From positions 33,703 to 97,702 of IMG/VR virus record IMGVR_UViG_3300023179_009191: DNA of 64,000 nt; one strand, written 5' to 3'. Shown here in pieces: positions 30,618-62,847 of the stretch (positions are counted from its first letter, which is position 1; each line of letters begins with the position of its first letter). The translations under genes and the position numbers were made by a program. A model generated the notes under the pieces. It searched no databases. It saw nothing but the letters and a program-made list of their open reading frames with translations, and was not told the DNA's origin. This DNA is from a virus.

Positions 30618-31430
30618 ATGCTAATGAAAGTATCTCATGAGTCTCCTGTATCTATTCTAGAATTATCAAGAAATTATAATGATTTTGATTACTGTTTAGT
30701 ACATCTATTGGATCAATATCCGGAATATAAAAATTATTACAAATCAGCTCGAGCTACATATGATAGAGAAGTTTTACTGGACAACTCTATTTTTGAACTT
30801 GGAAAATCATTTGATCCCAGAAGATTTTATGAGTCTGCTCTGGATATACAACCCAATATGTTTATTGTTCCTGATGCCTTAGAGGATTATACAGAAACGG
30901 TGGATAGCTTTAAACGGTTTACAGATAAAAAATATGATCTAAAGCATACTTTTCTTACTAAGGCAATCGGTGCTGTGCAGGGTAAAAATTGGCAACAGCT
31001 AACAGAATGTTACAAGTTTATGTCTGATCAAGCAGATATGATTGCAATTAGTTTTGATTTTAGTTACTATAATATAACTGGTCAAGGATGGCATCATCTA
31101 GAGCGCTGGTGCTCTGGCCGCCAACGCTTCATCATGGACTTAGTAAATAGTGGCATATGGAGGTGGGACAAGCCTCATCACTTACTAGGCTGCTCGCTAG
31201 CAAAAGAGTTTAGATTCTATGTCGATAGAAATATTTACAATATTGTGTCTTGTGATACTAGTAATCCAATTGTTGCTGCTATTCATGGATTAAAATATGA
31301 TGCGGATTATGGTCTACAGAGCAAACCCACAACTAAGCTTGCAGATCTCATAACACACGAATTTACGCATGATCAGTTTGATCTTGTAACCTATAATACG
31401 AATATGTTTAAGAAGATTATTAGAAGATAA
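30618..31430 (+). CDS. dpdA: DpdA-like 7-deazaguanine DNA transglycosylase
   Basis: 270 residues, start set by the leaderless rule. It follows the TIM-barrel tRNA-guanine transglycosylase pattern: LDNSIFELG with Asp55 (substrate Asp), PDALED (about 85-90), GAVQGK (118-123, compare GIVQGG), HLLGCSL (188-194, compare YLMGVG) and CDTSNP with Asp213 (nucleophile position). The zinc site of tRNA TGT is not visible and the protein is short, as in phage DpdA forms that exchange guanine in DNA for a 7-deazaguanine. It heads an operon with a formyltransferase and QueF. A DNA rather than tRNA substrate is inferred. Confidence 0.75.
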   Translation: MLMKVSHESPVSILELSRNYNDFDYCLVHLLDQYPEYKNYYKSARATYDREVLLDNSIFELGKSFDPRRFYESALDIQPNMFIVPDALEDYTETVDSFKRFTDKKYDLKHTFLTKAIGAVQGKNWQQLTECYKFMSDQADMIAISFDFSYYNITGQGWHHLERWCSGRQRFIMDLVNSGIWRWDKPHHLLGCSLAKEFRFYVDRNIYNIVSCDTSNPIVAAIHGLKYDADYGLQSKPTTKLADLITHEFTHDQFDLVTYNTNMFKKIIRR

Positions 31431-31441
31431 AAGGAGTTATA

Positions 31442-32026
31442 ATGGCAGCTGCAAAAAATAGAGACTGGCTTTGCTTCTTTAGTAGAAGTGGCTCTGAAAT
31501 TAATAACCTTAGTAAAACATTAGAAATATACCCTGACGCTATTGTTACTAATAGACAAAATCTGGAAGGGGTAAATACAGATTTATTGTCAGTAAATACT
31601 TTCCGGGAGCACAAATTAAACAGCGCTATATGGTATACATTACCAACTAAACCCACAGTAACAGATTACGAGCAAATATTAAGTAGATTTGATAACCCAG
31701 TAATTACATTACACGGATATCTTCGTATTATTCCAAAAGAAATTTGTGAAAAATATGAAATTTATAATCTGCATCCTGGTCTCATAGACAAATATCCGGA
31801 ACTCAAGGGGTTCAATCCTCAAGAAAGAGCATTTAAGGGTGGTTATGATTTAGCTGGGTGCGTTATTCATAAGGTTATTCCTGAAGTAGATGCAGGTGAA
31901 TTAATCATGGGTCAAGGTGTATCTATTAAAAATAAAACTCTTGAGGAAGTGTATGCAGCTTTGCATATTTGTGCTTCTGATCTATGGAAAAGCTTCTTTA
32001 CAGCATATAATATATTGGAACGTTAA
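31442..32026 (+). CDS. Formyltransferase-fold enzyme, possible preQ1-DNA formyltransferase
   Basis: 194 residues with an AAGGAG ribosome site (31431-31436). LHGYLRIIP, NLHPG and EVDAGELIMGQ match the formyltransferase fold of PurN. Asn109, His111 and Asp150 fit the catalytic Asn-His-Asp triad. PurN adds formyl from 10-formyl-THF to an amine (GAR). The operon contains DpdA-like and QueF genes, so the amine may be the aminomethyl of preQ1 in DNA; formylated 7-deazaguanines have been described in phage DNA, as far as I recall. A normal purine-synthesis role is the alternative. The first 90 residues are shorter and less conserved than in PurN. Confidence 0.75.
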   Translation: MAAAKNRDWLCFFSRSGSEINNLSKTLEIYPDAIVTNRQNLEGVNTDLLSVNTFREHKLNSAIWYTLPTKPTVTDYEQILSRFDNPVITLHGYLRIIPKEICEKYEIYNLHPGLIDKYPELKGFNPQERAFKGGYDLAGCVIHKVIPEVDAGELIMGQGVSIKNKTLEEVYAALHICASDLWKSFFTAYNILER

Positions 32027-32027
32027 T

Positions 32028-32999
32028 ATGGATATTTCTTTGCATTATGAGAATGTATTTCTCAAGCCTAATTTTAATTCTGTTAAAACCCGAGCTGACA
32101 TTGATACTAATGTTAAGTTTTTAGGTAAAAACTTCAGACTACCTGTTGTACCTGCTAATATGAAGTGTTGTGTAGATTTTGATATCTGTCAAATTCTTGA
32201 TTCAAAATATTATTTCTATGTTATGCATAGATTTGATCATGACATATTTGCATTTGTTAAAGATGCAAATGCAGTTTTCTTTAATTATATTTCTATTAGT
32301 GTTGGAATTCAACAAAAGGACAGAGCGCTTATTAATAATTTAGCTGCTCATAAATTGAGAGTAGATTTTATTACCATTGATGTTGCTCATGGTCATCATG
32401 CAAGAGTTGCAGATCAAATTAAATTTATTAAAGATAAATTACCAGATACTAAAGTTATTGCTGGAAATGTTGCTACCCGCAATGGTGCAGAATATCTACA
32501 TATGGCAGGTGCAGATGCAGTAAAAGTAGGTATTGGTGGAGGGTATGCATGTACAACAAAAGACAAGACTGGTTTTACATATCCCATGTTTAGCTGTGTC
32601 ATGGAGTGTGCTAATAATGAGGGGTCTAGTTTTGAGATACCCATTGTTGCAGATGGTGGTGTCAGGTGCAATGGTGATATTGCTAAAGCTTTAGTAGCAG
32701 GGGCAAAAATGGTGATGTGTGGCTCCATATTTGCTGCTTGTTCTGATAGCCCTGCTCCTGTTGTAAAGGATACTGCAGGCAGACGTTACAAACAATATTA
32801 TGGTTCAGCAAGTATACACAATAAAATTGATAAGAAAAATATTGAAGGTACCATGAAGCTTATGGAAACAGATTCATTTACTTATGAAGAAAAATTGTTA
32901 GAAATTTCTCAAGATTTGCAAAGTGCAATTAGTTATGCAGGTGGTTGCAATCTGGGTGCATTAAATTTAAATAACGTTGGCTACGGTGTAAGAATATGA
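32028..32999 (+). CDS. guaC: GMP reductase / IMPDH-family enzyme
   Basis: 323 residues. KVGIGGGYACTTKDKTGFTYP (about 166-186) is the IMPDH/GMP reductase active loop; catalytic Cys175 is followed by TT as in GuaC. GNVATRNGAEYL, PIVADGGVRCNGDIAKAL and GAKMVMCGSIFAACSDSP are also conserved. GuaC reduces GMP to IMP with NADPH and releases ammonia. No CBS domain is present, consistent with GuaC. Its presence inside the deazaguanine operon is odd: it may adjust guanine pools or act on a modified guanine. The end overlaps the next gene by 4 bases. Confidence 0.85.
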   Translation: MDISLHYENVFLKPNFNSVKTRADIDTNVKFLGKNFRLPVVPANMKCCVDFDICQILDSKYYFYVMHRFDHDIFAFVKDANAVFFNYISISVGIQQKDRALINNLAAHKLRVDFITIDVAHGHHARVADQIKFIKDKLPDTKVIAGNVATRNGAEYLHMAGADAVKVGIGGGYACTTKDKTGFTYPMFSCVMECANNEGSSFEIPIVADGGVRCNGDIAKALVAGAKMVMCGSIFAACSDSPAPVVKDTAGRRYKQYYGSASIHNKIDKKNIEGTMKLMETDSFTYEEKLLEISQDLQSAISYAGGCNLGALNLNNVGYGVRI

Positions 33000-33346
33000 G
33001 CAAAGAAGATTATATAAAATATGTTGCAGAGCATTTTCCCATTACAGTAGAAGAATTTAAAAAGATTCAGCAAGAACAGTTTGAAATTTTCTGTAAGAAG
33101 CAGTTTGATTATGGCCCTGGAAATATATCCTTAGGGTCAGATTTGAACAAAAAAGAAGACAGATTTGCCTCCATATTTGCTATTGTGGTTAGACTTAATG
33201 ACAAAATTCAAAGACTGATTAATCTCGTTTTAAAAAAGCAAACTCTGCAAGGTGCTGCCAATGAACCAGTTATGGATGCTTTTCGGGATGCAGCAGTTTA
33301 TTGCATCATAGCAGAAATAGTTTATAATCATAAATGGGCCAAATGA
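32996..33346 (+). CDS. DUF1599 / nucleotide modification-associated domain 1 protein
   Basis: 116 residues. KKQFDYGPGN, VVRLNDKIQRLINLV and NEPVMDAFRDAAVYCIIAEIV fit the DUF1599 (Nmad1) pattern of 'DYG...RLxDKxxRLxNL...DxxxDxxxY'. The domain is found, from memory, beside DNA base-modification genes and may act on nucleotides (MazG-like helical fold). ATGA overlaps join it to the genes on both sides. Confidence 0.7.
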   Translation: MSKEDYIKYVAEHFPITVEEFKKIQQEQFEIFCKKQFDYGPGNISLGSDLNKKEDRFASIFAIVVRLNDKIQRLINLVLKKQTLQGAANEPVMDAFRDAAVYCIIAEIVYNHKWAK

Positions 33347-33546: not shown

Positions 33547-34137
33547 GTGCACATAACTTTTACAGGGCCGCAGTGTTCAGGCAAAACAACATTGCTAAAA
33601 GCAATGAAAAAAGAACAAGGAATTGTAGACAAATTTTGGTATGTTGATGAAGTAACTAGACTGGTTAAAAGAGAATTTTGTGTGGATATAAATGAATCAG
33701 GTGCAAATGATGTAACTCAATTGTTAATTATAAACAAGGAACTAGAGAATCTCTTTAAATACAAGAAAGAGTATTTGTGGGATCGTTGTCAAGGCATTGT
33801 GCATGATAGATGTCTGTTGGATGGTTTAGTTTTTACTTCATATTTTTATGAAAAGAAATTGGTTTCGCAGCAAGTATGGATGCAGGCTGTTAGCTATTGG
33901 TACAGATTTCATGAAAAATATGACATTATTTTTTATCCTGATCCTCATGATGTGAAGCTAGTAGATGATGGAGAAAGAAGTACAAATAAAGTTTTTAGAG
34001 ACTCAATTATTAAACTTTATGAAGAATACTATTTAAATACATTTCAGGTGAAAAATAAATTAGTTATTTTAAAGGGAACAGTTGAACAACGCATGGAACA
34101 GATTAAAATTAAACTACATGAACAAGGTATTAGATAA
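33547..34137 (+). CDS. P-loop kinase-like protein (AAA_28 type)
   Basis: 196 residues, GTG start. TGPQCSGKTT (5-14) is the P-loop; YVDEVTRLVKRE and DRCLLDGLVF are the Walker-B-like and lid-type motifs of NadR-like and deoxynucleoside-kinase-like AAA_28 proteins. A related protein is encoded at 61281-62012. In this operon it may phosphorylate a base or nucleotide precursor. It overlaps the QueF gene by 20 bases. Confidence 0.7.
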   Translation: MHITFTGPQCSGKTTLLKAMKKEQGIVDKFWYVDEVTRLVKREFCVDINESGANDVTQLLIINKELENLFKYKKEYLWDRCQGIVHDRCLLDGLVFTSYFYEKKLVSQQVWMQAVSYWYRFHEKYDIIFYPDPHDVKLVDDGERSTNKVFRDSIIKLYEEYYLNTFQVKNKLVILKGTVEQRMEQIKIKLHEQGIR

Positions 34138-35032
34138 TAGCAACATTTCAAAGCATTTGGGCAAAGTAACAGGATATAAATCCACTTATGATCCTTCACT
34201 CTTGGTCAGAGAACCCAGAATTAACAACAGAAAGCATCTGGACATTACTGATGAAACTGTGCCTTTCACAGGTTACGATATTTGGAATGCTTATGAAGTA
34301 TCTTGTTTAACTGCAGACGGTATGCCTATTGCTGCCATTGCTAAAATTGTTTACCCTTGCAAAAATAAATATATTGTTGAATCCAAATCTATTAAGCTGT
34401 ATATGAATTCTTTCAACATGCAGGTCTTCAAGGGATCTGTGCCATGCGTTGTAAATGAATTGCAGAATACTATTGCCAGAGATTTATCTAATTTGCTTGA
34501 AACAGAGGTTAAAGTTCATGTAAGATTGGCAAAAGCTGTTTCAGATGATCTTTTTTATCCTCCAGTATTTAGCAATAAATCTTTTCCTACATTGGAGCAT
34601 AATATTGATATTTCTATGATCCAATCAAGATCTTATACTGAAGACCCATCTATTTTATCTGCCTTTGAAAGCACAGCTTCTACAGTGCAAAGATTTCACT
34701 CTGCTCTGTTAAAAAGTAATTGCCGGGTAACATCACAGCCTGATTGGGGTGATGTATATATTCATTACAAGGGCAAATATGCAATTACTTCAACATCTCT
34801 TCTGCAGTATATTGTTTCATTTAGAGATGAGTGTCATTTTCATGAAGAAATTTGTGAAACCATTTATATGCGTTTGTTTAGGCTATTCTTTCCTGAAGAA
34901 TTAATGGTAAGCTGTTTATATGTTAGAAGGGGCGGCATTGACATTAACCCAATACGTGCCAGTAACTATAGCTTGTTAGATGAAGTACTTATTGACGAGA
35001 CAAAGTATTTTACGAAAACAGTAAGACAGTAA
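34118..35032 (+). CDS. queF: QueF, 7-cyano-7-deazaguanine reductase (bimodular)
   Basis: 304 residues, the length of the bimodular E. coli-type enzyme. LGKVTGYKSTYDPSLL opens it; ESKSIK (88-93) is the NADPH-binding motif; Cys202 and Asp209 in NCRVTSQPDWG match the thioimide Cys and its Asp partner at +7; YVRRGGIDINP near the end is also conserved. It reduces preQ0 (nitrile) to preQ1 (aminomethyl) using two NADPH. Start ATG 34118 gives a normal N-terminus. With QueE and DpdA this sets up preQ1-type DNA modification. Confidence 0.93.
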   Translation: MNKVLDNSNISKHLGKVTGYKSTYDPSLLVREPRINNRKHLDITDETVPFTGYDIWNAYEVSCLTADGMPIAAIAKIVYPCKNKYIVESKSIKLYMNSFNMQVFKGSVPCVVNELQNTIARDLSNLLETEVKVHVRLAKAVSDDLFYPPVFSNKSFPTLEHNIDISMIQSRSYTEDPSILSAFESTASTVQRFHSALLKSNCRVTSQPDWGDVYIHYKGKYAITSTSLLQYIVSFRDECHFHEEICETIYMRLFRLFFPEELMVSCLYVRRGGIDINPIRASNYSLLDEVLIDETKYFTKTVRQ

Positions 35033-48730: not shown

Positions 48731-48734
48731 ACTT

Positions 48735-49550: not shown

Positions 49551-49564
49551 TTTTATTCTGTTAT

Positions 49565-50428
49565 TTATTCTGTTATTTTTTTATACCAATATTCTAAGTC
49601 TAATTGTTCTAGATTAAATTTACTGAAAGGAAAAAAGTCTGTTATTTTACTTTTTAAAAAGTTTTCATTTATTTGTGAATAACTATCAACCTGTAAAATT
49701 GGCAGATCATTAAATTCTTTAAATGTATAGGGGTGATTATATATTACAGGAACACATTCTAGATAAAGACATTCCCATATTCTATGGCAATCTACTCCAT
49801 TTCCAGGTGGCGCTATACAGAAGTAAGACTGTTTTAATTTTTTAATATACTCTGTAAAAGAAGCTGGCTGAGCCATTAATATACCATTAGCTTCTGTTTC
49901 AGCATTTACTTTTAGTCTTACTGGTGTGTTTGTAGAACAGTCAAAGCTTTTAAAAACTAAATTATTTTTTTGTAGATTTAACTCCATTATTTGCTTTAAT
50001 GCATTTAAATCACCGTGTGGCCATTGACTGTTGGCAATGCCAATAGGTACAGAAAAAAGTTTGGGATGAGATGTATATTTGTTTTGACAAAACCATTTTT
50101 TAATTTTAGAAGAATTAAGATATGGGTAAAAATTTGATGTTATGCCTACATCACTATTGTGTGTTATAAGAGTGAACGGTCCTTCAATTTGAGGATAAAC
50201 ATAATTAAAAAAATAATCTAAAATATGTGGGTAGGTAAAAATTATTTTAGCATATTTTAACTCATCAGGAATTTTTACGTCCGTTTTACTAGGACTAAAA
50301 ACATAACATTTAGTCTTGGTGTTTTGTATTTGTGTTTTTACTAGCTCAGAATTAAAATTATTTTCTGTATTCAGCGCTACCGTTACATCAGCAAACTCTT
50401 GAAGTTTTTCTCCAGTTACAAAATTCAT
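49565..50428 (-). CDS. Exostosin-like glycosyltransferase (287 aa)
   Basis: The C-terminal part CIAPPGNGVDCHRIWECLYLECVPVIYN (about 215-242) is the exostosin/GT47-like 'PxGxxxDxxRxxExLxxxCVPVI' motif. It probably uses a nucleotide sugar. The stop of the upstream FkbM gene overlaps its ATG. Confidence 0.65.
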   Translation of the reverse strand: MNFVTGEKLQEFADVTVALNTENNFNSELVKTQIQNTKTKCYVFSPSKTDVKIPDELKYAKIIFTYPHILDYFFNYVYPQIEGPFTLITHNSDVGITSNFYPYLNSSKIKKWFCQNKYTSHPKLFSVPIGIANSQWPHGDLNALKQIMELNLQKNNLVFKSFDCSTNTPVRLKVNAETEANGILMAQPASFTEYIKKLKQSYFCIAPPGNGVDCHRIWECLYLECVPVIYNHPYTFKEFNDLPILQVDSYSQINENFLKSKITDFFPFSKFNLEQLDLEYWYKKITE

Positions 50429-51081
50429 AATGATCTTTTGAACAGAGTATCGCCGTGTGTGTAAATAGGTATAAAGTTATTAGCGGTGAGGAAATTTATA
50501 AGCTGCTGATTACTGGGGGCATTAGTATAAAAATCAGAATCAAATTCTGCAATAATAAATTTTACTGTGTCTATTAATTCTTCAAGCCCAAGCAGTAAAT
50601 TATATTCGCCTCCTTGAAGATCTAAGCATAGCATATCAACTTGTGTTATATTTAAATTTTTTAAAATCGATTTTAAAGTTTTAGACTGCACTTTTATTTT
50701 ATTCATAGGAGCATCAGCCACATCTTTATGTTGATAAATTGAAGAAATACCAGCATTATGTGCAGGACAATTTGCAGTATCAAAGCTGTGAAAATTGATT
50801 TCACCTTCTATATTTGAAAGTGCATAATTAAAAAATTTTATTCTGCCTTGGCTGTTTTGTATATTGTGTTTGCATACGTCTACACACTCTGGGTTACATT
50901 CAAAAGATAAAATAGTGGCATTAGGGTATAATATTTCTAATTGCAATGCATCAAGCAAGTCTCTTGAACCACATTCTACAATTACTTTTATGTTTTGTTT
51001 ATCTTTAATATGTTCAGTAAAATCTGGCTGAACATAAGTTGCAGTTGGGGTTGTTACATTTCTAATATATTTAAAATTCAT
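50425..51081 (-). CDS. FkbM-family SAM methyltransferase (218 aa)
   Basis: VIVECGSRDLLD (SAM loop), ILSFECNPECVDVCKHN, and VDMLCLDLQGGEYNLLLGL follow the FkbM pattern. These enzymes methylate sugar hydroxyls. ATGA overlaps at both ends. Confidence 0.85.
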   Translation of the reverse strand: MNFKYIRNVTTPTATYVQPDFTEHIKDKQNIKVIVECGSRDLLDALQLEILYPNATILSFECNPECVDVCKHNIQNSQGRIKFFNYALSNIEGEINFHSFDTANCPAHNAGISSIYQHKDVADAPMNKIKVQSKTLKSILKNLNITQVDMLCLDLQGGEYNLLLGLEELIDTVKFIIAEFDSDFYTNAPSNQQLINFLTANNFIPIYTHGDTLFKRSL

Positions 51082-51926
51082 AAACTAAATTCTCCTAGCT
51101 GTTTAGAGTGTACGTGTAAATTACAAATAGGGATTTGTTGATTATCATATATTATATAAGGCTGCTTATTAAATTTATCAACTACTGGTTTTATAGTATT
51201 TGATACTATGAAGCGGTCAACCAACCGGTTAACATTGCTAGGGTGAACAGTGTTTTTAGGTGCATTACCTGAGCCTCCAAGATACTGCCCATACGTACTA
51301 GGATCAAAAACAAAATTAAATTTTACAAAGCTTTTATCTTGTGGTGTGCTCGGTAAAATACTAATTAAATCGCTGTTTTTGTGTATGTGACCCAGGAGCT
51401 TCATTTCATGCGGCATATCGTTAAATAAAGACTTAAGTCTGGGTATACCTAATGTTGCTAAATCAAAAAGGTTATCACATATTTCTACTAAACTGTGATA
51501 TGTTTTTATATAAGTAAACCCACAAACTAACTCATCTTCTTTATGCTGCGTGAAGCTAGCATTTGTGGTTGTATCATTTAATATGGAGATAAAATTGTGA
51601 ACATTTTTATAAATTAAAACATCATTATCAAAATGAATGATGTCATTTATTTTAGTTTTAAGCAAAAAATCATTTATATAAAAAAATCTTTCAAAAGATG
51701 TTTTCCACAGAGGGTCGCAGTCATTTTTATAAAAATCAATGCTTTGCAATCTGTTAATTGCTAGATCGTTTACATTAATTACATTGACTTCATTAACGTT
51801 GGTTAAGTTAGCATCTGTTAATAGAAAAATTTTATAGTTTGTTTGTGTTTGCTTTATTTGTTGTATGCATTGTGCTAAATGTTTTGGAAAAACACCGTCT
51901 TTGTGAAATAGTATAAAGTGTGTCAT
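51078..51926 (-). CDS. Glycosyltransferase with DxD-like motif (282 aa)
   Basis: Start at ATG 51926; the longer frame runs into the next gene. YKIFLLTDANL and IIHFDNDVLIYKN (Asp-x-Asp at about 105-107) suggest a GT-A fold of the GT8/GT32 kind that needs Mn. Acceptor unknown. Confidence 0.65.
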   Translation of the reverse strand: MTHFILFHKDGVFPKHLAQCIQQIKQTQTNYKIFLLTDANLTNVNEVNVINVNDLAINRLQSIDFYKNDCDPLWKTSFERFFYINDFLLKTKINDIIHFDNDVLIYKNVHNFISILNDTTTNASFTQHKEDELVCGFTYIKTYHSLVEICDNLFDLATLGIPRLKSLFNDMPHEMKLLGHIHKNSDLISILPSTPQDKSFVKFNFVFDPSTYGQYLGGSGNAPKNTVHPSNVNRLVDRFIVSNTIKPVVDKFNKQPYIIYDNQQIPICNLHVHSKQLGEFSL

Positions 51927-51928
51927 TA

Positions 51929-52651
51929 TTAAAGAAAAATATAATTTGTATTGCTGTATATATAGTGGCACCCGTACTTCGGATCATACTTTTTCGGTAT
52001 TAAAACAAATATTTCTGTATCAGTACTAGCAAGATGTTTAATTGTAGAAGCTAAATTGGACGGGCCAGAATATAATGTTATAAATCTTTTACAAGACATT
52101 AAAACATCTGAATAATGCATTAAGTCATTAATATCAATTTTTTTAAATTTATTTGCAGTATCAAAATGAGTACCATAAGTAACTTTTGAGTGAGTAACTG
52201 ATAATGTATCTTCATTTAAATCAAATTTGTTAAGAATGTTTAAAATATTTTGTGGGTTATAATTGCTTGCTATGGAATGAATTGAAAGATCGAGAACGGT
52301 TTTTTTCTTTAAATCAGATATAAAATTTGGTTTATAATAAATTTTAGGATATTCTATATTTGTATTAAATCCGTAAACTCTCTGAACAACCTGTATATGA
52401 TTTAAGCTTCCAGGCTGCTCAAATAAAGCACATTTATCTGACCACGATAAATCAGTAGAATCAACTTTTTCTTTTTCTATAAAGGGATTGAACCCCCAAA
52501 CAATATCATAAATTTGCTGGTTTCTTACTGCATTATGTTTTGATAAAAAACACTTTTTGCCATGTTGAGAACACAATTCTGGTATTAGTGAATGCGCTAA
52601 ATTATCTCCTAGTCCGCCCCAAGGTTGATAAATTGTAATTTTTTCTGTCAT
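51929..52651 (-). CDS. Glycosyltransferase-like protein, GT-B type possible (240 aa)
   Basis: WGGLGDNLAHSLIPELC near residue 11 is like the Gly-Asp loop at the start of heptosyltransferase-type (GT9) proteins, and SGPSNLASTIKHL near 210 resembles the sugar-nucleotide site. ATGA coupling. Confidence 0.5.
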   Translation of the reverse strand: MTEKITIYQPWGGLGDNLAHSLIPELCSQHGKKCFLSKHNAVRNQQIYDIVWGFNPFIEKEKVDSTDLSWSDKCALFEQPGSLNHIQVVQRVYGFNTNIEYPKIYYKPNFISDLKKKTVLDLSIHSIASNYNPQNILNILNKFDLNEDTLSVTHSKVTYGTHFDTANKFKKIDINDLMHYSDVLMSCKRFITLYSGPSNLASTIKHLASTDTEIFVLIPKKYDPKYGCHYIYSNTNYIFL

Positions 52652-53427
52652 AGATTTATATACTTATATCTTAGGTTTTCAATTAAAAGATCTACTCCAA
52701 GCTCTTCATTTTTACTGTTCCAACCTGTTTTAGGAATTGCATTTATAATATTATCTCCATCGCATAAAAAACCGGACCAGAAGCTAAAAGAACCTTGACT
52801 TAGTATTAGGTTATTATGAGCGGATAGAAAAGATATTGTATTTTTTTCTGTATCATTGAAAATTGATGCATTGTATTTTTTTAGCATATATTGAATAGAC
52901 TCATGCTTAGGATAATCAGTACAGATAGTTATTTTGCCTGGTAAACATAGTCTTATAGCTTCTTCATAATATTCTGTTGGTAGTAAATTTTTTCTCAGGT
53001 TAGGACAAAGTAAATCACCCAATCGTATATGAATAGCTATATCAGTGCTGTTAGTAGAATACGGAGTTGCGTTAAACCACTTTTTAATATTATCTCTAAA
53101 TGGTATATAAAATTTTTTACGCTGAAAATAGCCATCAAGTATTATTTTTCTGGGTGTACTGTCATTAATAACTTCTGCTATTTCAAAATCAGGATGGCAG
53201 AAGTCATCAGACAAACTGTGATTTCCTAAATGCTGTACTGGTGCATCATGGTGCGCATATCCAGGCTGATCATAATTTAAATCTATACCTCTTAGCATAA
53301 ATTCTCTATCAACATCTGTTGGGCCAAATAGTTTAAACTTTAAGTTTTCAGAAATAATTCTTGCTGTAAAATAAGGAAACAATTGGTTTCCAAATCTGCC
53401 CATGCATTTTTTAATTGTTACGCTCAT
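52648..53427 (-). CDS. GT11 fucosyltransferase-like paralogue (259 aa)
   Basis: Start at ATG 53427 (a TTG 9 bases upstream is less likely). CMGRFGNQLFPYF, AIHIRLGDLL (closer to HxRRGD) and SQGSFSFWSG match GT11. Diverged copy of the 48735 gene. Confidence 0.8.
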   Translation of the reverse strand: MSVTIKKCMGRFGNQLFPYFTARIISENLKFKLFGPTDVDREFMLRGIDLNYDQPGYAHHDAPVQHLGNHSLSDDFCHPDFEIAEVINDSTPRKIILDGYFQRKKFYIPFRDNIKKWFNATPYSTNSTDIAIHIRLGDLLCPNLRKNLLPTEYYEEAIRLCLPGKITICTDYPKHESIQYMLKKYNASIFNDTEKNTISFLSAHNNLILSQGSFSFWSGFLCDGDNIINAIPKTGWNSKNEELGVDLLIENLRYKYINL

Positions 53428-54301
53428 AATGCTCAATTAATTTATAAAGATTTTTCATAAAGCCTACAGGTGTAAGATACTCATTACCAAAGTTAAAAAG
53501 ATTTTGCTGTATATTAATAAGACTATTATTTTTTGAATTGTAAAAAGATTTCACTGCATCAACTATATCTTGATCAGGCATTATTCTTACTATGTAATCA
53601 TCATAGTTAAAAATTTCTTCAAAAGGTAGAGCGCAATCTGTGTCAACCAATATGGGTATTCTACCCATGCAGATTGTTTGACAAAATCTATAGCTATAAT
53701 TACCCCAACCTCTTATACATAAAGTAAAAAGATTTTTAGAAATATTATTATAAAATTCATTAACTGATTTTTTTTGAATTTGCTCTGTAATATTATTGTT
53801 TATGCATTCTTCTGAAGAAGATGTGCCCCACTTGGGGCCATTTTTAATAATAAAATCTGTTTTAATATTTGAATTTTTTAATTCATTTAAATATTTTTCT
53901 CTATTAAATCTATCGCTAGCACCACAAAAGCCAACAGAGCACTCACCTGAATAAGGTATAAATTCTTTATTAGGTACTCTTTCTTCTGCAAGAGAAGTAA
54001 GAGAAAATTCATTTTTAAATTTTTTTGATTTGAGTAAATTGTTTTTAAAATTATAACCTATAGAAATGGGAATATATCCTTCTTCTATGTCACCTTGACC
54101 TAAAAAAACTACTTTTTTACCAAAGTTTTTTGACTTGAGTATAAATTTTTTTAATGACTCTTTTGAGTGATATATATTGTTATCTATTGAAGTACAAATA
54201 AAATAATTGCAATCCTGAGGTGAAGCAAATTTAAAAACCTTTTTAAAACACTCAGTAATATCAGAGCCTTTTAAAAATTCTTCTTCATAATAAACATTCA
54301 T
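53411..54301 (-). CDS. Exostosin-like glycosyltransferase (296 aa)
   Basis: SVGFCGASDRFNREKYL, CIRGWGNYSYRFCQTICMGRIPILVDTDCALP (about 207-238) is the exostosin-like core; a close relative is at 55258 (CTRGAGNFSYRLYETLSCGRIPIFVNTDCVLP). Confidence 0.75.
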   Translation of the reverse strand: MNVYYEEEFLKGSDITECFKKVFKFASPQDCNYFICTSIDNNIYHSKESLKKFILKSKNFGKKVVFLGQGDIEEGYIPISIGYNFKNNLLKSKKFKNEFSLTSLAEERVPNKEFIPYSGECSVGFCGASDRFNREKYLNELKNSNIKTDFIIKNGPKWGTSSSEECINNNITEQIQKKSVNEFYNNISKNLFTLCIRGWGNYSYRFCQTICMGRIPILVDTDCALPFEEIFNYDDYIVRIMPDQDIVDAVKSFYNSKNNSLINIQQNLFNFGNEYLTPVGFMKNLYKLIEHYERNN

Positions 54302-54394
54302 TTCTTTACTGCAATTACAGTACCATTTCTATCATTAGGATCATCATATACAATATTCCATAGTGTACTCTTTTACTTTTTCAAATAGTGTCAT
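54298..54394 (-). pseudogene. Frameshifted 31-aa ORF
   Basis: MTLFEKVKEY then, one base out of frame, LWNIVYDDPNDRNGTVIAVKK. Removing a single A restores an ORF whose start overlaps the upstream stop (ATGA, with AGGAG) and whose stop overlaps the next start (ATGA), as for every intact gene here. The length of 97 bases is one too many. Function unknown. Confidence 0.5.
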
Positions 54395-55257
54395 AAGTGG
54401 CTCCTGATATAATTAGAAAAATTTGATGATTTAAATGTTTCATAAGCTTTTTTACAGTTTAATTTCATTTTTTGCTCTCTTTCTACTGAAATATCTTCAA
54501 GCAAATTTTCAATATTATCATAATTCATTTTTTCAAAATCTTTTTCTTTAATAGAAATAATTGTATTGTCCCAATCCCAATCAGGTAAAATCCAGCTATC
54601 TGATACTAAAATTGGAATTGTTTGTGCATGCAAGCTTTCCCAGAATCTGACAGAAGAAGCTGAACTTCCCCTAGGACATAGAGAATAACGACTGCGTTGC
54701 AAAATATCTTGATATTCTTTTTCTTCTTTTGCTTTAGCATCTTTACTAATAACAACATTTGAGTCAACATGATAATTGTCTCTATAAACTATGCCAGGAC
54801 CATTGATACGACTCTTCATTCTCATTCTTATAGGGTGAGAGGTGTATGTTCCTACAAATGAAAATAATATATCTTTTTTAACACTATCAAAATCAAATGA
54901 GCTTGTAAATGGTATGGGTATAATCTCTACCTCAGAAATTGTATTTCCTTTCTCATGCAAAGGTGAAAATACTTTTGTAATATTGAGATGTTTAAAATAT
55001 AGTTTGAGCATCATATAACTATCATGCTGACAAACAGTAAAATTATTTTGTTGTTCTGTTTTATATTTGCTTAATGTTTTGAAGTAGAATTCAGCTGGCT
55101 GCCTGTTGGGATAATCAAGCCAATGCCCATTTAATATTTGAGTCCAGGGAACAGCTATATAATTAAGATCATTGCTATTCTTTAGCTGCTTAAAGCATTC
55201 ATATTCAACAGGAAATTTCTCATAAGGAAAAATGTCTTCAAAAAAAGAAATAACCAT
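54391..55257 (-). CDS. Exostosin-like glycosyltransferase (288 aa)
   Basis: SRYSLCPRGSSASSVRFWESLHAQTIPILVSDSWILP (about 206-242) matches the exostosin-like motif; an N-terminal VISFFEDIFPYEKF and CQHDSYMML region precedes. Adjacent to its relative at 55258 with no gap. Confidence 0.75.
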   Translation of the reverse strand: MVISFFEDIFPYEKFPVEYECFKQLKNSNDLNYIAVPWTQILNGHWLDYPNRQPAEFYFKTLSKYKTEQQNNFTVCQHDSYMMLKLYFKHLNITKVFSPLHEKGNTISEVEIIPIPFTSSFDFDSVKKDILFSFVGTYTSHPIRMRMKSRINGPGIVYRDNYHVDSNVVISKDAKAKEEKEYQDILQRSRYSLCPRGSSASSVRFWESLHAQTIPILVSDSWILPDWDWDNTIISIKEKDFEKMNYDNIENLLEDISVEREQKMKLNCKKAYETFKSSNFSNYIRSHL

Positions 55258-56166
55258 TTATATATTATAATTTATATATTGGGCAAATCCATCGGGAGCT
55301 AAAAATTTCTCATATATACTTCTTGCTTCTTTTTGCCTGTTTATATAATCAGTTGGTGAAGCGTTTTGCCAAAATTCATTAATTTTATTATTAAGTTCTT
55401 CTGGGCTATCAACAAATACACACAACTTTTTCCAATCTATCCTATCTTCACAAGGCAAAACACAATCAGTATTTACAAAAATAGGTATACGTCCACAAGA
55501 TAAAGTCTCATAAAGTCTGTAAGAAAAATTTCCTGCTCCTCTTGTGCATAAAACTAAATCCGAGTTTATTATGTTGTTTATGTATTCAGTTCTGACTTGT
55601 TGATTGTGGGGAGAACCGCCCCAAAAACAATCTCTTATAATAAAGTTTGTTTGTATTTGATTATTATTTTTTAAGATTTCAATACAATTTTTTCTTATAG
55701 GGTTAGAAAAAACCCCACAAAAACTTACTACTAGAGTTTCTTTTTTCTCTCTACACTTAAATGGTATTATATCATTAAAATCTTGACTCCATGCTGGCAT
55801 TGCATATTCATTATTTTTTTGTTTTGATTTTAATAAAGATGTTCTAAAAAGAGTAATACTACTGTCTAGAAATGATGGTTTATCATTATCATCATTATAA
55901 AAAGCTAATATTTTTTTATTATATTTTCTGGCTTCAAAAATATAATCGCCAATCTTATAATTAAGTTTTTCTGGAAATAAAAACACATCACATTTTTCCT
56001 TAGTTGTATAGGTTACATGCTGCTCAATAGATACTCTCCATTTTTGGCTGTTTTTAAAGTCATTATCTTTTTGAAGAACATGTTCACTAAAAAATGGCAG
56101 GAGTAAAAATTGTTCTGAACAAAAATTATTAAAATCTGTATTGTCTTTATCAAACCAAATTTTCAT
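55258..56166 (-). CDS. Exostosin-like glycosyltransferase (302 aa)
   Basis: VVSFCGVFSNPIRKNC and LVLCTRGAGNFSYRLYETLSCGRIPIFVNTDC place it closest to the 53411 gene, a tandem-duplicate pattern. Overlaps the next gene by 17 bases. Confidence 0.75.
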   Translation of the reverse strand: MKIWFDKDNTDFNNFCSEQFLLLPFFSEHVLQKDNDFKNSQKWRVSIEQHVTYTTKEKCDVFLFPEKLNYKIGDYIFEARKYNKKILAFYNDDNDKPSFLDSSITLFRTSLLKSKQKNNEYAMPAWSQDFNDIIPFKCREKKETLVVSFCGVFSNPIRKNCIEILKNNNQIQTNFIIRDCFWGGSPHNQQVRTEYINNIINSDLVLCTRGAGNFSYRLYETLSCGRIPIFVNTDCVLPCEDRIDWKKLCVFVDSPEELNNKINEFWQNASPTDYINRQKEARSIYEKFLAPDGFAQYINYNI

Positions 56167-56806
56167 AATTATGCTTTATCATATCAAGTAATTTTTGTTT
56201 ATTTTCAACTCCAACAACATAATTAGCATGATGTACTAAAATTTCTTTTGGTGGTATTATATTTGTAATACCATCCCAGTTAAATGTACCATCAGTATTG
56301 TTAAAAAAATTACCAATAGTATAATATTTCTTATTATCTAAAGTCTTACACCTTGCAAGATGTTTAAATTCATTTAAAGCTACTTGATCATTAACAAGAT
56401 GTCTAAAGTTCTTTTTTATAGTTTCAAATAAGTTAAGTGTTCGAAAATTACTTTGACATGCAAAAAAACCTGCACATAAACTCCCTCTATCTTCTTGGCA
56501 TACGATATCTACATTTTGTAGATTGCTCTCAAGATCTTTAAGAAAAGGTTTAAAAAATTGCACATCGCAATCTGCAAAAACAAACCAATTACCTTTATTT
56601 TCATTTATTGCATCCAATATTAAATTAATCTTATATTCCATTGAATCTAGCCACCCCTGAGACATGAAAGCTCCATGTATTGTTGTTTGCGGGTGGTATA
56701 AAACTCTAATAGCTGCTTGTTCTTTGGAATATATACTTCTCAAAGTATACTTAAAACTATCATACATACTTTTATGACTATCGCTGTAGTGGGTATATAT
56801 TTTCAT
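56150..56806 (-). CDS. Nucleotide-diphospho-sugar transferase-like (218 aa)
   Basis: NWFVFADCDVQFFKPF (Asp-Cys-Asp, a DxD motif near 74-76) and DIVCQEDRGSLCAGFFACQSN resemble GT77-type galactosyl/xylosyltransferases. ATGA coupling. Confidence 0.7.
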   Translation of the reverse strand: MKIYTHYSDSHKSMYDSFKYTLRSIYSKEQAAIRVLYHPQTTIHGAFMSQGWLDSMEYKINLILDAINENKGNWFVFADCDVQFFKPFLKDLESNLQNVDIVCQEDRGSLCAGFFACQSNFRTLNLFETIKKNFRHLVNDQVALNEFKHLARCKTLDNKKYYTIGNFFNNTDGTFNWDGITNIIPPKEILVHHANYVVGVENKQKLLDMIKHNYENLV

Positions 56807-57537
56807 TTAAAATTTTCAATATAAGTTTTTAGTTTTGCGAATTCTTCGTCCATTTCATTTTTATATTTTTGAACCCAGTCATTATTATTCCAAATATTAG
56901 TTCTTAATGCTTCAAGATTATTACTAATACTATCCATCTTACCTGTAGTTTCGCTATAATGTAAGTGTTTGATTAATATATCATGTCTGTAGATTGTTCT
57001 CTGTAATCTATCGAAAATAATTTGAGGCCATGTATCATGGTGTGTGTTCTCCATATAAGGTTCAACAAAGTAACCTGCTACATTTATATAATTTTTATGC
57101 ACAAAGAAATTAACACAAAGAGGGGGTACTCCAGCATATTTGTTGCCGGAGCCTCTCATACCATCGTTACAGTGTAGCATTATGATTTTATCTTTTGGTC
57201 CGCTTTCAAATTCTCTAATAATTTGTTCATCCCAATCTGGCGTCATAAACATCATATCATCACCTATCATAGCGTAAATATCTGAATCTATTTGTTTAGC
57301 CATATTATTCCACATGGTAGATAATCCAAGAAATTTGCCTTCATTTTTAAACATAACTGTTTTTATAAAAGGAATGTTATTACATAAGTAGGAATAATAT
57401 TTTCCTGCAGGATCATCTTCATCAACACCTAAAACAAGATAGACATCTTTACTCTTTATAGTAGTAACTAGGCTTGAGATGAGTGTGAGTAACTTATTTA
57501 GCCTATTTCTTGTGGGACACATTAATGCAATTTTCAT
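56803..57537 (-). CDS. GT2-like glycosyltransferase (244 aa)
   Basis: MKIALMCPTRNRLNKLLTLISSL is a GT2 N-terminus; DSDIYAMIGDDMMFMTPDWDE supplies the Asp-Asp donor site (about 88-108). Ends the first co-transcribed block; an 83-base gap with no clear gene follows upstream. Confidence 0.8.
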   Translation of the reverse strand: MKIALMCPTRNRLNKLLTLISSLVTTIKSKDVYLVLGVDEDDPAGKYYSYLCNNIPFIKTVMFKNEGKFLGLSTMWNNMAKQIDSDIYAMIGDDMMFMTPDWDEQIIREFESGPKDKIIMLHCNDGMRGSGNKYAGVPPLCVNFFVHKNYINVAGYFVEPYMENTHHDTWPQIIFDRLQRTIYRHDILIKHLHYSETTGKMDSISNNLEALRTNIWNNNDWVQKYKNEMDEEFAKLKTYIENFK

Positions 57538-57620
57538 AATTTATTAATAATTTATATGACATTAATTCATTTCAGACTTTATGATATATAAAAAATATTT
57601 TTTTGTAAACATGGAAAATA

Positions 57621-58226
57621 TTATTTTTTAATAAAAAACATCTGCTCTTTTCCATATTGCGTGTTAGTTGAAAGTGTTAATGTTTCTACTTTTGATATTT
57701 TAGGCTTGTGTTCTTTTAAAAGATTAAGAAATTCTTTTTCAGATATTGATAAATCAGGTACATCAACACCAAGTGATTTATTATGTGAAATTTCAACAGT
57801 TTCGCCTTTATCATTTACAGGTATAAAGAATGTTATAACTAGTTTTTCTTTTGCACTATTTAATGCATTTTTAAGAATATTCATCCATGCATAATTATGC
57901 TCTAAAACATGTCTCATATGTATGCCATCACAATCAGAGCTATAAGTTTTAAGGTCAATAAATTTTTTAATGGCAAATTTAGTGTCGCTTCCATCAACTC
58001 CTATGGCATCTTTCCTAAATCTTAAAAAACCACCACCTCCACATCCCCAGTCTTCTACTGTCTTACAATCAAGTAAGAACTGAGCAGCTTTTTCATAAGT
58101 AACAGTATCACCATAAAGGAATGCAGAAGGATTGTTAGGTAAGTTTGTATAGTAGCCATTCCATTTATTAATATTGCATTCTTGTATTACTTTATTATTT
58201 TCTATCACAAAATTTTTTACCCCCAT
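57621..58226 (-). CDS. Class I SAM methyltransferase (201 aa)
   Basis: VEDWGCGGGGFLRF (about 57-70) is motif I, GVDGSD the acidic end of strand 2, and MRHVLEHN motif IV. Probably methylates a sugar. Overlaps the next gene by 10 bases. Confidence 0.8.
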   Translation of the reverse strand: MGVKNFVIENNKVIQECNINKWNGYYTNLPNNPSAFLYGDTVTYEKAAQFLLDCKTVEDWGCGGGGFLRFRKDAIGVDGSDTKFAIKKFIDLKTYSSDCDGIHMRHVLEHNYAWMNILKNALNSAKEKLVITFFIPVNDKGETVEISHNKSLGVDVPDLSISEKEFLNLLKEHKPKISKVETLTLSTNTQYGKEQMFFIKK

Positions 58227-58852
58227 TTTTCATTAAACAATTCAGACAACCCATGTGTATATGCATAGCTATTTTCTAATAATTTATGGCTTTGTTGGTA
58301 CTTATGCAAGGCATATGCGTTATTTACTCTAGCATGTTTAAGATTTAATTTTTTAAGCGTATTAGCATAATCGTTATCTTGATACCAAAAAGAAAATTTT
58401 TCATCAAATGAGCCTATTTGTTTTTGAACATACTTATTCATTGCTATACACCAGCCCATAACTATTTTTTCTACATCAAAGCCTTCAGTAAAACTCTCTT
58501 TAGATTTAATTTGTCTTGTGGTGGGGCTAACAGAATCATAAACCGATAAAGCTTTATCGAGGTGATCAAAACATTCAGGTTCATAAACAACATCATTATT
58601 AGAAACAGCCAATTTATCCTCTTTGCTATCAATATGATTAAAAGCAATATTTAAAAATTTGTTGTAGTTAAAGTCGATACAGGGGAATAAAAATTCTGCA
58701 TTTAAATCAATTTGTTTGTTTTTAAGATTACAATTTGTCTCCATAACAATTATTTTGTTTACACATTTTGAAAGGCGAACAGAATCAATACATTCTTTAA
58801 GCATATAGTAATATTGAGGATTTTTTGTGTTTGATAATATTATTACAGTCAT
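58217..58852 (-). CDS. GT2-like glycosyltransferase (211 aa)
   Basis: MTVIILSNTKNPQYYYMLKECIDS, NNDVVYEPECFD and GSFDEKFSFWYQDNDYANTLKKL fit rhamnosyltransferase-like GT2 proteins. Confidence 0.8.
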   Translation of the reverse strand: MTVIILSNTKNPQYYYMLKECIDSVRLSKCVNKIIVMETNCNLKNKQIDLNAEFLFPCIDFNYNKFLNIAFNHIDSKEDKLAVSNNDVVYEPECFDHLDKALSVYDSVSPTTRQIKSKESFTEGFDVEKIVMGWCIAMNKYVQKQIGSFDEKFSFWYQDNDYANTLKKLNLKHARVNNAYALHKYQQSHKLLENSYAYTHGLSELFNEKWG

Positions 58853-59448
58853 AATGGGTAATTTGTTACTAGTGGATTGACAACATATATCTTCTCTTCA
58901 CAGAATATATGATTAAATTTACATGAAGCATAAAAAGAAAAATCTCCACCATATCTATACTCCCAATTACCCATTTTATCAGGAATATTGGGAATTAAGC
59001 CGCAGGGAGTACCAATGTTTCCGAGTTTTAGGGAAGGATCTTTCCATACAAAATCGTTGTATCTATAATCTAAAATAATCTTAAAAAATATAATTGATTG
59101 CTTATCAGATGCATCTATAGCTTCTCTTATTTTTTTGAAAGATCCTTTTATGTATATATCATCATCGTCGCCATGAAGAATAAAATCCCCTTTCAGATTT
59201 TTTTGATATAAATTTCTGCAGCCGTGACCCCAGAAACCAAGATTTTTTTTAATATATAAAATATTTATATTGCAATTTAAATCATTAATAAATTGTACAA
59301 TTTGTTTGCTTGCTTTGTCAAAATAATCTTCACCATCTATAGCTATATAAAGAAAGTCGTTAATTTCAAGTTCGCTTATTAAACTTTTGAGCATATTAGT
59401 TAGAGTTGGTCTACCAGTAGTTGTAAGAAAAACAGAAATTGAATTCAT
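58849..59448 (-). CDS. GT2-like glycosyltransferase (199 aa)
   Basis: MNSISVFLTTTGRPTLTNMLKSL and ILHGDDDDIYIKGSFK (about 91-106) are the GT2 start and donor-site motifs. ATGA overlaps at both ends. Confidence 0.8.
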   Translation of the reverse strand: MNSISVFLTTTGRPTLTNMLKSLISELEINDFLYIAIDGEDYFDKASKQIVQFINDLNCNINILYIKKNLGFWGHGCRNLYQKNLKGDFILHGDDDDIYIKGSFKKIREAIDASDKQSIIFFKIILDYRYNDFVWKDPSLKLGNIGTPCGLIPNIPDKMGNWEYRYGGDFSFYASCKFNHIFCEEKIYVVNPLVTNYPL

Positions 59449-60293
59449 TTTTTATTGTTTTTAAGTTTTTTGAGTGTATCAATAACTTGTTGTTCAGAAA
59501 AAAAAGGTGGTTGATTGGGATAGTGACCATGCTTTATTTTATATTTTTCTCTGCCACCATATACATTTTTTTCCCATTGCTCTTTCTTGTTTGCAATACT
59601 GCTGTTATCAATTGCACCAGGTGCTTCTGTGAGAAACTTATGTGAATCAAATATGTCCGCAAACCACCAAAAAGGCGGATGGTATCCTGCTTTTATAATT
59701 CTATATGTAAGGTCAACATGCTCCCATGCATTATAAAATTGTTCATCATGCAGCCCTACTTTCTCTAGCACATCTCTATCAAAATATGAAAACATGGCAA
59801 CTGTATGTTCAAATAGAGAGACTTTTATATTATTACCATAATCAATAATTTTCTTGGGATTAGGTTCAGAGTGTTGATTGCATAAATGTCTGTTATGTAA
59901 ATCCCATAAAACACTGGGGTCCTGTTTTCTATTAAAAGGACTGCCAGGACCGTAATTAAAATGCTTAATTCCTGAGACTTTGGCAGCTTCTATATATTTG
60001 TCAAACACGTCTTCTCTTAACAAAATAATATCATCCTCAAGCATAAAAATATGTTTGACATCTTGATTTAAAAGATACTGCAAAGCATCATTTTTGCTTA
60101 TGCCGACACCTTGATTTGTTTTGTGCTGAATAAGATTAAAATTGTTTTTGTATGTTTTTATACTATTAGAAATGTCCAGTTTACCATCATTTATAATAAC
60201 TACAGGTCCATTTATTTTGGGGAGACTTTTTAAGCATTTATCTAGGAAATCTATTCTATCACATGTAACTATGCCTATGCCTATTTTTTCCAT
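59445..60293 (-). CDS. GT2-like glycosyltransferase (282 aa)
   Basis: IGIGIVTCDRIDFLDKCLKSL, VIINDGK, NQGVGISKNDAL and HIFMLEDDIIL show the whole GT2 donor-binding order. First transcribed gene of the island; head-to-head with the 60327 late gene. Confidence 0.88.
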   Translation of the reverse strand: MEKIGIGIVTCDRIDFLDKCLKSLPKINGPVVIINDGKLDISNSIKTYKNNFNLIQHKTNQGVGISKNDALQYLLNQDVKHIFMLEDDIILLREDVFDKYIEAAKVSGIKHFNYGPGSPFNRKQDPSVLWDLHNRHLCNQHSEPNPKKIIDYGNNIKVSLFEHTVAMFSYFDRDVLEKVGLHDEQFYNAWEHVDLTYRIIKAGYHPPFWWFADIFDSHKFLTEAPGAIDNSSIANKKEQWEKNVYGGREKYKIKHGHYPNQPPFFSEQQVIDTLKKLKNNKK

Positions 60294-60320: not shown

Positions 60321-60326
60321 ATGTTA

Positions 60327-61058: not shown

Positions 61059-61059
61059 A

Positions 61060-61272
61060 CTATTTGGTATGAAATAGTAAAGCTTTGTTGAGTTTCACTA
61101 AAGCTTTTTTTGGTTCTAAGCCTTCATCAATAAGTCTTTTGTATTCTTTCTTAAAAGCTACAACAAATTCTTCAGATAGATTAAAATTTTTTGGATAAAA
61201 CTCTCTTCTTATCCATTTTATAGATTTAAAATTTTCGTTTATCTTTTCAAAGGCTTGGTTAAATTTTGTCAC
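61060..61272 (-). CDS. Small basic helical protein (70 aa)
   Basis: GTG start 5 bases behind a late box. KFNQAFEKINENFKSIKWIRREFYPK; charged helix. No family recognised. Confidence 0.6.
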   Translation of the reverse strand: MTKFNQAFEKINENFKSIKWIRREFYPKNFNLSEEFVVAFKKEYKRLIDEGLEPKKALVKLNKALLFHTK

Positions 61273-61277
61273 CTAAA

Positions 61278-61285
61278 TATTTATT
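61278..61285 (-). promoter_or_regulatory. T4-type late promoter
   Basis: AATAAATA on the minus strand, 5 bases before GTG 61272. It overlaps the end of the kinase-like gene. Confidence 0.75.
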
Positions 61286-62012
61286 TAAGTAAGAACTTTT
61301 TCCTAAGTTTTATTTCTTCTTCTTCTTTTTCTCTTTCTTTCTTCTGAGCAGTCAGAATGGCTTCCATCATATCCAAGTTTTCCTTGGATAGTATACTCTG
61401 TTCTTCACCAATGAGATCTCCTTGCTCATTTAGGTAAAGTTTTATCATTTCTATACGTTCTTCTGGTAAACCAAATATTTCTATTATGGCAGGTGAATCA
61501 TCCTTTGGAAAAAAGGGTGAATTGCCTGTATGATAAGAGCGTTGAATAGCTTTAAAAATATTATCTATTTCCTTATTATAATTTTGGTCAATTTCTCTAC
61601 CCTCTCTTGCTTCAATTTTTACAGGGGCAACTTTAGTAATTGGAAGCAAGAAAACAATGTCCAAATGTCTCATACTTTCACTAACAAGAGGAATACATTT
61701 ATCAATAAACTCCTTGTCGATATCTGTTGCCTGCTTATCAAAACTCCACATGGAATAAACAAGATTATCCAGAGGGCATCTATCAAAAATTACATGATCT
61801 TCTTTGGTAGTATTCTGTAAATCATTAATAAGACAGTTTAACACTTTCCATTGACTGTCTTTTGTTACTTGCTTGTTTAGTGGTAATTTTTCTTTTTTTA
61901 CAATTTCACGGTAAGATTCTTTTGATCTTGTATAGTTTGGCCATTTTTTAAGAAAATCATTAATGAGGGTTGTTTTGCCTTGACACGCAGTACCAGAAAT
62001 TGCTATTCTCAT
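61281..62012 (-). CDS. P-loop kinase-like protein (AAA_28 type, 243 aa)
   Basis: SGTACQGKTT (6-15) is the P-loop; RSKESYREIV and FDRCPLDNLVYSMW follow. Related to the 33547 protein but with a charged coiled C-terminal 40 residues. It may phosphorylate a nucleotide or nicotinamide compound. It is next to queE. Confidence 0.7.
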   Translation of the reverse strand: MRIAISGTACQGKTTLINDFLKKWPNYTRSKESYREIVKKEKLPLNKQVTKDSQWKVLNCLINDLQNTTKEDHVIFDRCPLDNLVYSMWSFDKQATDIDKEFIDKCIPLVSESMRHLDIVFLLPITKVAPVKIEAREGREIDQNYNKEIDNIFKAIQRSYHTGNSPFFPKDDSPAIIEIFGLPEERIEMIKLYLNEQGDLIGEEQSILSKENLDMMEAILTAQKKEREKEEEEIKLRKKFLLK

Positions 62013-62109
62013 TTTACAATATATTTAATTTACTATTATATAATATCAATTTTAAATGATGTATTAAAAATATCGTGAAAAACAGGCATGTGGAAATCCT
62101 GGCATGTGA

Positions 62110-62847
62110 TCAGACTTTCAATGCCTTGTCATAAATGACTAGCTGCAGTCTGGGGCTAAACTGATAGCCATGTTGCTTGCAAAGCTCGGCGACCAGTGGT
62201 GCCATCTCAACATGTTCAGATCGGCTACCACAACAAGGCATGAGCCATACCTTGCTTCTCTTAATATCAAACCGGTTTATATATTTTTCCTCTATTTCAA
62301 TGAGATCTTCTGGCTTAGTAATAACAAATTTAAATCCCGACCCATTGCGAGCATGCCAAGACAATACATCAGGTATGTATCTCTTGTTCTCCGGGTCGCC
62401 ATTGCTGGCTAGCTTGGGTGAAGTTGTGAAGGTAGCGTAATAATCTAGCTGCCAGGAAGGATCAGGCATGATTGTTGCATTAGTCTCAAAATCTATACGG
62501 GGTATGAAGCGGTATTTTTCAGAGAATGCAGCAATAAATTCTAGCAAGTTTTTTTGCTGTATGAGGGGCTCGCCTCCTGTTAATTTGAGCATACTATTTT
62601 TACGTAAATGAGAAACAAATCCTGATTCATCCATGAGCTGAAAAATTTGATCAAATGTAAGTCTGTTCTTTACAGACCAGCTAATAAAACTATCGCATCC
62701 ATGGGGTGAATCCTTGCTAGCAAATCCTTTGCAAGTCAAATTACACATGGATAAGCGCATAAAAACTGAGGGCTTACCCACATGCTCACCTTCACCCTCA
62801 ATAGTATGAAACAGCTTGTCATCTGATAAAAATATAAACTTATCCAT
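62110..62847 (-). CDS. queE: QueE, 7-carboxy-7-deazaguanine synthase
   Basis: 245 residues, radical-SAM fold. TIEGEGEHVGKPSVFMRLSMCNLTC (about 15-39), LTGGEPLI (about 89-96) and FKFVIT follow QueE. It rearranges carboxy-tetrahydropterin (CPH4) to CDG. The cluster cysteines are C35, C39 and C51 (C-x3-C-x11-C), not the usual C-x3-C-x2-C, with GCDSFISW after the third. Its early promoter (6-base rule) matches that of the DpdA operon. Confidence 0.88.
   Translation of the reverse strand: MDKFIFLSDDKLFHTIEGEGEHVGKPSVFMRLSMCNLTCKGFASKDSPHGCDSFISWSVKNRLTFDQIFQLMDESGFVSHLRKNSMLKLTGGEPLIQQKNLLEFIAAFSEKYRFIPRIDFETNATIMPDPSWQLDYYATFTTSPKLASNGDPENKRYIPDVLSWHARNGSGFKFVITKPEDLIEIEEKYINRFDIKRSKVWLMPCCGSRSEHVEMAPLVAELCKQHGYQFSPRLQLVIYDKALKV

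Follow-up and report, generated by a model that had tools for sequence, protein, structure and literature searches.

An operon encoding a putative DpdA3-type transglycosylase, a formyltransferase and QueF in a stretch of viral DNA likely serves to replace guanine in the phage genome with a formyl-preQ1-type base, which would blunt host nucleases. The stretch, hereafter the window, comprises 64,000 bases (33,703-97,702) of the linear 97,702-base virus record IMGVR_UViG_3300023179_009191 and ends where the contig ends. We propose that preQ1 (7-aminomethyl-7-deazaguanine) would be made from GTP by FolE, QueD, QueE, QueC and QueF, that a DpdA3-type transglycosylase would swap guanine for preQ1, and that the formyltransferase DpdN would formylate the aminomethyl nitrogen with 10-formyl-tetrahydrofolate, turning genomic deoxyguanosine into 2'-deoxy-7-(formylamino)methyl-7-deazaguanosine. 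The chemical product and the order of swap and formylation are those suggested by the enzyme families, and nuclease protection is predicted by analogy with other 7-deazaguanine phages (PMC6884629). The first-pass annotation of the window had predicted a preQ1-type or formyl-preQ1-type DNA base from DpdA-like, formyltransferase, QueF and QueE genes. All four genes are present and intact, and a preQ1 or formyl-preQ1 base is their best reading because the transglycosylase combines a tRNA-guanine transglycosylase (TGT) fold with the lack of a zinc site, QueF and the formyltransferase keep their characteristic residues, and the neighbours and their order are conserved. The genes that carry this reading are:

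30618-31430, plus strand: DpdA3-like guanine transglycosylase, 270 residues (TGT fold by AlphaFold and Foldseek; invariant residues)
31442-32026, plus strand: formyltransferase, probable DpdN, 194 residues (PF00551 4e-15; best profile match to PurN structures)
34118-35032, plus strand: QueF, two-domain NADPH-dependent preQ0 reductase (PF14819 5e-36; PF14489 7e-22)
62110-62847, minus strand: QueE, radical-SAM CDG (7-carboxy-7-deazaguanine) synthase (phrog_2076 5e-40; 4njg E 2.5e-4)
63761-64000, minus strand: C-terminal tail of QueD, 79 residues, gene cut by the contig end (blastp and synteny)

The transglycosylase, formyltransferase and preQ1 genes

The 30618-31430 protein matched no Pfam or NCBIfam family, its PHROGs matches were all of unknown function, and PDB sequence searches returned nothing relevant. 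An AlphaFold model built on an alignment of 29 sequences (predicted local distance difference test score, pLDDT, 94) resembled TGTs: all 50 of the 50 PDB matches listed by Foldseek were TGTs, with a best E of 6e-10 and a TM score of ~0.7. Residues D55, D86, Q121 and D213 were invariant in 31 sequences and the Q121-G122 pair was kept. The motifs LDNS, VPD, VQG, HLLG and CDTSNP occur in the same order as TDSGG, FDE, IQG, YLMG and FDC of Escherichia coli TGT, a residue correspondence taken from motif order, not superposition. When the DpdA profile was compared by hhalign with E. coli TGT, DpdA1 of phage 9g and two neighbours from KVP40, no sequence link was convincing, so membership of the TGT/DpdA superfamily, to which we assign the protein by its predicted fold and its Asp and Gln residues, rests on fold. 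The CXCX2C zinc site of E. coli TGT was absent from the DpdA proteins of the window, of Flavobacterium phage vB_FspM_immuto_2-6A (NC_055915; hereafter immuto) and of Campylobacter phage CP220, and the window protein is ~100 residues shorter than the E. coli enzyme. It is 41% identical to immuto DpdA and 44% identical to the Campylobacter phage proteins; the putative DpdA3 label comes from this similarity, not from direct comparison with the published families.

In the adjacent formyltransferase, which is 44% identical to that of immuto, the PurN-type Asn-His-Asp triad (N109, H111, D150) was invariant in 17 sequences, and the protein is probably DpdN acting on preQ1 or dPreQ1. QueF, 47% identical to its immuto counterpart, aligned over nearly its full length to the Vibrio cholerae-type QueF structure 3bp1 (E 4e-49). 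In that alignment it keeps the catalytic Cys and Asp and the ESKS-x-KLY NADPH motif of a nitrile reductase; its NCBIfam QueF score was 269 bits, just under the cut-off of 293. The radical-SAM cysteines of QueE (CX3CX11C) were invariant in 10/10 relatives of its clade. The QueD tail, which occupies the final 240 bases of the window, was 47% identical over 55 residues (blastp) to the QueD of a relative and shares with it the ending GTSWG; relatives have the order Kin2(-), QueE(-), PhoH(+), QueD(-), Kin2 being a kinase described below.

Conservation of gene order was assessed in two sets of loci. The first was retrieved with DpdA queries only and comprised 70 distinct DpdA genes, each followed by at least 4.5 kb of sequence; the second comprised 47 distinct immuto-like DpdA loci. 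Loci fetched through kinase or K116 searches were excluded from the first set because such searches bias the counts. Since both sets consist of the best-scoring matches per query, with distinctness judged by DpdA sequence, the counts are not of independent evolutionary events. The order DpdA-DpdN-(GuaC)-(K116)-Kin-QueF recurs: a formyltransferase lay downstream of DpdA in 61/70 loci of the first set and 46/47 of the second, and QueF in 67/70 and 45/47, with QueD, QueE and FolE usually upstream in the immuto-like set. The core order of DpdA, formyltransferase, kinase and QueF is common to immuto and more than 100 distinct IMG/VR loci, which excludes a chance arrangement.

Kinases and the level of the exchange

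The first-pass annotation was right in the genes it named but passed over three further members of the same operon: a kinase, a GMP reductase and the Nmad1-like protein K116. With a second kinase beside QueE, these are:

33547-34137, plus strand: Kin1, P-loop deoxynucleoside/nucleotide kinase-like protein (AAA_28; PF13521 2.5e-14; phrog_2107 8e-26)
61281-62012, minus strand: Kin2, second AAA_28 kinase (PF13521 1.5e-14)
32028-32999, plus strand: GMP reductase, GuaC-like (1ypf GMP reductase, E 1e-71)
32996-33346, plus strand: K116, small all-helical protein of 116 residues (weak match to DUF1599, nucleotide modification associated domain 1)

By its PF13521 and phrog_2107 matches Kin1 belongs to a P-loop kinase family and is a predicted nucleotide kinase; profile matches to thymidylate and deoxyguanosine kinase ranged from 7e-6 to 6e-5. 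Kin2 adjoins QueE in 9/10 related loci. A kinase lay downstream of DpdA in 69/70 loci of the first set, where it was the most constant companion, and in 43/47 immuto-like loci. It was kept in the loci (8/70) that carry DpdA, Kin and QueF and lack the formyltransferase. Among open reading frames (ORFs) of 130-260 residues, a P-loop was found in 127/336 of those within 3.5 kb downstream of DpdA vs 0/257 of those more than 6 kb away.

These neighbours bear on one step of the proposed pathway, namely whether guanine is exchanged in DNA or in a nucleotide. DpdA3 may act on DNA after replication, as is thought for DpdA1, with the kinase a general deoxynucleoside monophosphate (dNMP) kinase for phage DNA synthesis, and we give this nearly an even chance. 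The TGT fold fits; TGT enzymes act on polymers and none is known to use mononucleotides. The operon also lies in a nucleotide-metabolism region with a ribonucleotide reductase upstream. Action at the nucleic-acid level is moreover the view of recent literature, which files DpdA accordingly (PMC12783734). What exchange in DNA leaves unexplained is the presence of kinases of several families directly beside DpdA3-type, but not DpdA1, genes. A tmk-like kinase (phrog_761) adjoins divergent DpdA genes in Bacillus phage BSTP12 and Weizmannia phage Youna2, a T4-gp1-type deoxynucleoside monophosphate kinase (DNMK) in Aeromonas phage Ahp1 and an AAA_18 kinase in Chryseobacterium phage MA9V-3, while no P-loop ORF was found around six DpdA1 genes (9g and five others) or the remote DpdA-like gene of Fusobacterium phage phiFN37. 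Instead, sliding clamp and polymerase genes adjoin dpdA or lie close to it in 9g, R7M, Ssp-JY38, slur01 and RHEph26. A position near the clamp would fit base exchange in DNA; DNA polymerase genes also adjoin DpdA in BSTP12 and Youna2, so polymerase proximity alone does not tell the two possibilities apart.

Alternatively, DpdA3 may swap guanine for preQ1 in dGMP (or dGTP), after which the kinase would phosphorylate the modified dNMP and the polymerase would incorporate it, giving genome-wide replacement. This is a sub-hypothesis on a single step, and we hold it tentatively, at somewhat short of an even chance. A kinase neighbour is expected here because the product of a swap on dGMP must be charged to the triphosphate, and the near-universal kinase neighbour, as a matter of gene order, favours exchange by DpdA3 at the dGMP level. 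The persistence of the kinase in CP220, which has no QueF or DpdN close by, and in the eight loci without DpdN points the same way, as do the P-loop enrichment, the different kinase families beside divergent DpdA genes and the kinase-free surroundings of DpdA1. Competition from the guanine pool would be lowered by GuaC, and perhaps by K116. A modified-dGTP route had indeed been proposed for Campylobacter phages (PMC6884629). Against exchange in the nucleotide stand the polymer substrates of TGT enzymes and the literature view cited above, the lack of a kinase in 4/47 immuto-like loci and in 2/3 MA9V-3 relatives, and the failed PDB fold match of K116.

Some related observations were made on these kinases. 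A DpdA-kinase fusion suspected from annotation in Bacillus phages was ruled out: the DpdA-like genes (5896-6684 and 3896-4684 of their stretches) are annotated 'NadR' or 'polynucleotide kinase', and the kinase is a separate gene immediately preceding. A viral scan with the Bacillus/Weizmannia DpdA alignment found no relatives. In CP220 the gene directly before DpdA (6868-7899 of its stretch) combines HD phosphohydrolase and P-loop domains in one product, possibly a nucleotide-pool enzyme.

Alternatives to formylated guanine in DNA

Several points weigh against a formylated guanine substitute in the DNA of the window phage. Eight of the 70 first-set loci run DpdA-Kin-QueF with no formyltransferase, which suggests that formylation is optional. 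A PurN-type formyltransferase could act on another amine, from a purine or sugar pathway, and a glycan gene block is also present in the window. Phage QueF-type enzymes are hard to separate from QueF-L by sequence alone (PMC6884629). Finally, QueC and FolE were not found in the contig. The first-pass annotation had noted the absence of both from the window and was correct on this, but it had also counted QueD as missing, whose tail is present. Among 16 related, longer virus records in which the supply of Que genes was checked, QueC was found in 11/16, QueD in 10/16 and FolE in 10/16, with FolE, QueD, QueE and QueC all together in 10/16. Because longer relatives carry these genes elsewhere, the preQ1 pathway of the window phage is very probably complete and the genes missing from the window reflect contig truncation; their presence in relatives suggests that FolE and QueC would likewise come from the phage.

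It is improbable that the formyltransferase is an enzyme of purine or surface-sugar metabolism that lies next to DpdA by chance. The NCBIfam PurN profile is its best named match and the window has a glycosyltransferase block at 47-60 kb, but the PurN score was 54 bits against a cut-off of 150, and the place of the gene after DpdA in 61/70 loci of the first set and 46/47 of the second argues against a chance neighbour. Related formyltransferases were also seen in four other stretches, with no DpdA3 within the 10-15 kb examined. That the genes instead raise queuosine in host tRNA is very improbable, and action of DpdA on tRNA only is unlikely: QueE and QueF also take part in making tRNA queuosine and the TGT fold would fit, but the window enzyme is short and lacks the zinc site, a formyl group on preQ1 would be expected to block the next queuosine step at the same amine, and the DpdA relatives include Campylobacter phages of the kind whose DNA reportedly carries a high level of 2'-deoxy-7-amido-7-deazaguanosine (dADG) (PMC6884629).

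Neighbouring genes and known systems

The GMP reductase matched its NCBIfam profile at 2e-96 (323 bits vs a cut-off of 344) and lay within 6 kb of DpdA in 22 of the 50 loci counted, which rules it out as a universal core member. K116 was found downstream of DpdA in 47/70 loci and is 63-84% identical across relatives. Its match to DUF1599/Nmad1 in Pfam (E 0.15, 12.9 bits) fell below the cut-off of 25 bits, as did the best among its relatives (E 0.012). The K116 model has four helices (pLDDT 80); the PDB fold search yielded nothing under E 1 and so gave no support to a role as a MazG-like pyrophosphatase. Genes for K116-like proteins and GMP reductase are also found close together in Microcystis phage Mel-JY01 (8791-13929 of its stretch) and crAss-like cr108_1 (6950-9986 of its stretch), with no DpdA within the stretches read. 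Outside the operon is a gene whose product is possibly a salvage enzyme for released guanine:

19779-20216, plus strand: phosphoribosyltransferase (PF00156 1.2e-9)

The glycan genes of the window form a low-GC block on the minus strand (47445-60293) of glycosyltransferase-like and methyltransferase genes (GT11 twice, GT47, FkbM), and immuto also has a sugar gene block. The start of the contig (903-5834) encodes HSP20, proteins with PEP-CTERM-like tails and a GH16 glucanase; these bacterial-looking genes are either carried by the phage or a chimeric end. Further on, at 11658-16908 of the contig-start stretch, are two repeat proteins of great length (1081 and 667 residues), rich in NNFLGxxAG units.

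The window shares its core genes and their order with immuto, an isolated phage that carries QueD, QueE, FolE, DpdA, formyltransferase, kinase and QueF, with QueC elsewhere, so that the novelty claimed for the exact gene set in the first-pass annotation does not hold. The two differ in that the operon of the window clade also contains GMP reductase and K116, and that its QueE, QueD and FolE form a separate cluster. CP220 and the Firehammervirus group, to which the Campylobacter identity given above refers, likewise have a kinase directly downstream of DpdA, but no QueF or formyltransferase within 8 kb either side of it. Phage 9g and the Queuovirinae also combine a 7-deazaguanine pathway with a transglycosylase. 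Their DpdA1, however, shows no significant profile similarity to the window DpdA and, beside its clamp and polymerase, has neither a kinase nor an annotated formyltransferase near it.

Cui et al. reportedly described, in NAR in 2023, formyl-dPreQ1, with DpdN as the predicted formyltransferase, and a subfamily, DpdA3, tied to complete guanine replacement. The predicted product and enzymes of the window resemble this system, and its gene set is presumably the same DpdA3/DpdN route to formyl-dPreQ1. In the T4 hydroxymethyl-dCMP pathway a modified dNMP is made first and is then handled by kinase and polymerase. The Z-genome pathway follows the same sequence of steps (PMC12783734). If exchange at the nucleotide level is right, the likeness of the window to these two would be one of logic only, as their chemistry is different and their base-modifying enzymes are unrelated. 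In phage CAjan, both modification and resistance to restriction depend on dpdA, as Hutinet et al. (2019) showed; the same study detected dPreQ1 in DNA of phages with a QueF homologue (PMC6884629).

From the gene set of the window one would thus expect a formylated base to stand in for guanine in DNA. The core system had been described before in a few isolated phages, and the kinase association is the new part. It bears on the route by which 7-deazaguanines enter phage DNA, for which both a modified-dGTP route (PMC6884629) and action at the nucleic-acid level (PMC12783734) have been put forward, and its recurrence across many phage lineages makes the level of exchange testable with named genes of the isolated phage immuto. 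Should dGMP be the substrate of the swap, this would be a transglycosylase-based pathway with Z-genome-like logic, in which a dedicated kinase would allow genome-wide replacement of guanine.

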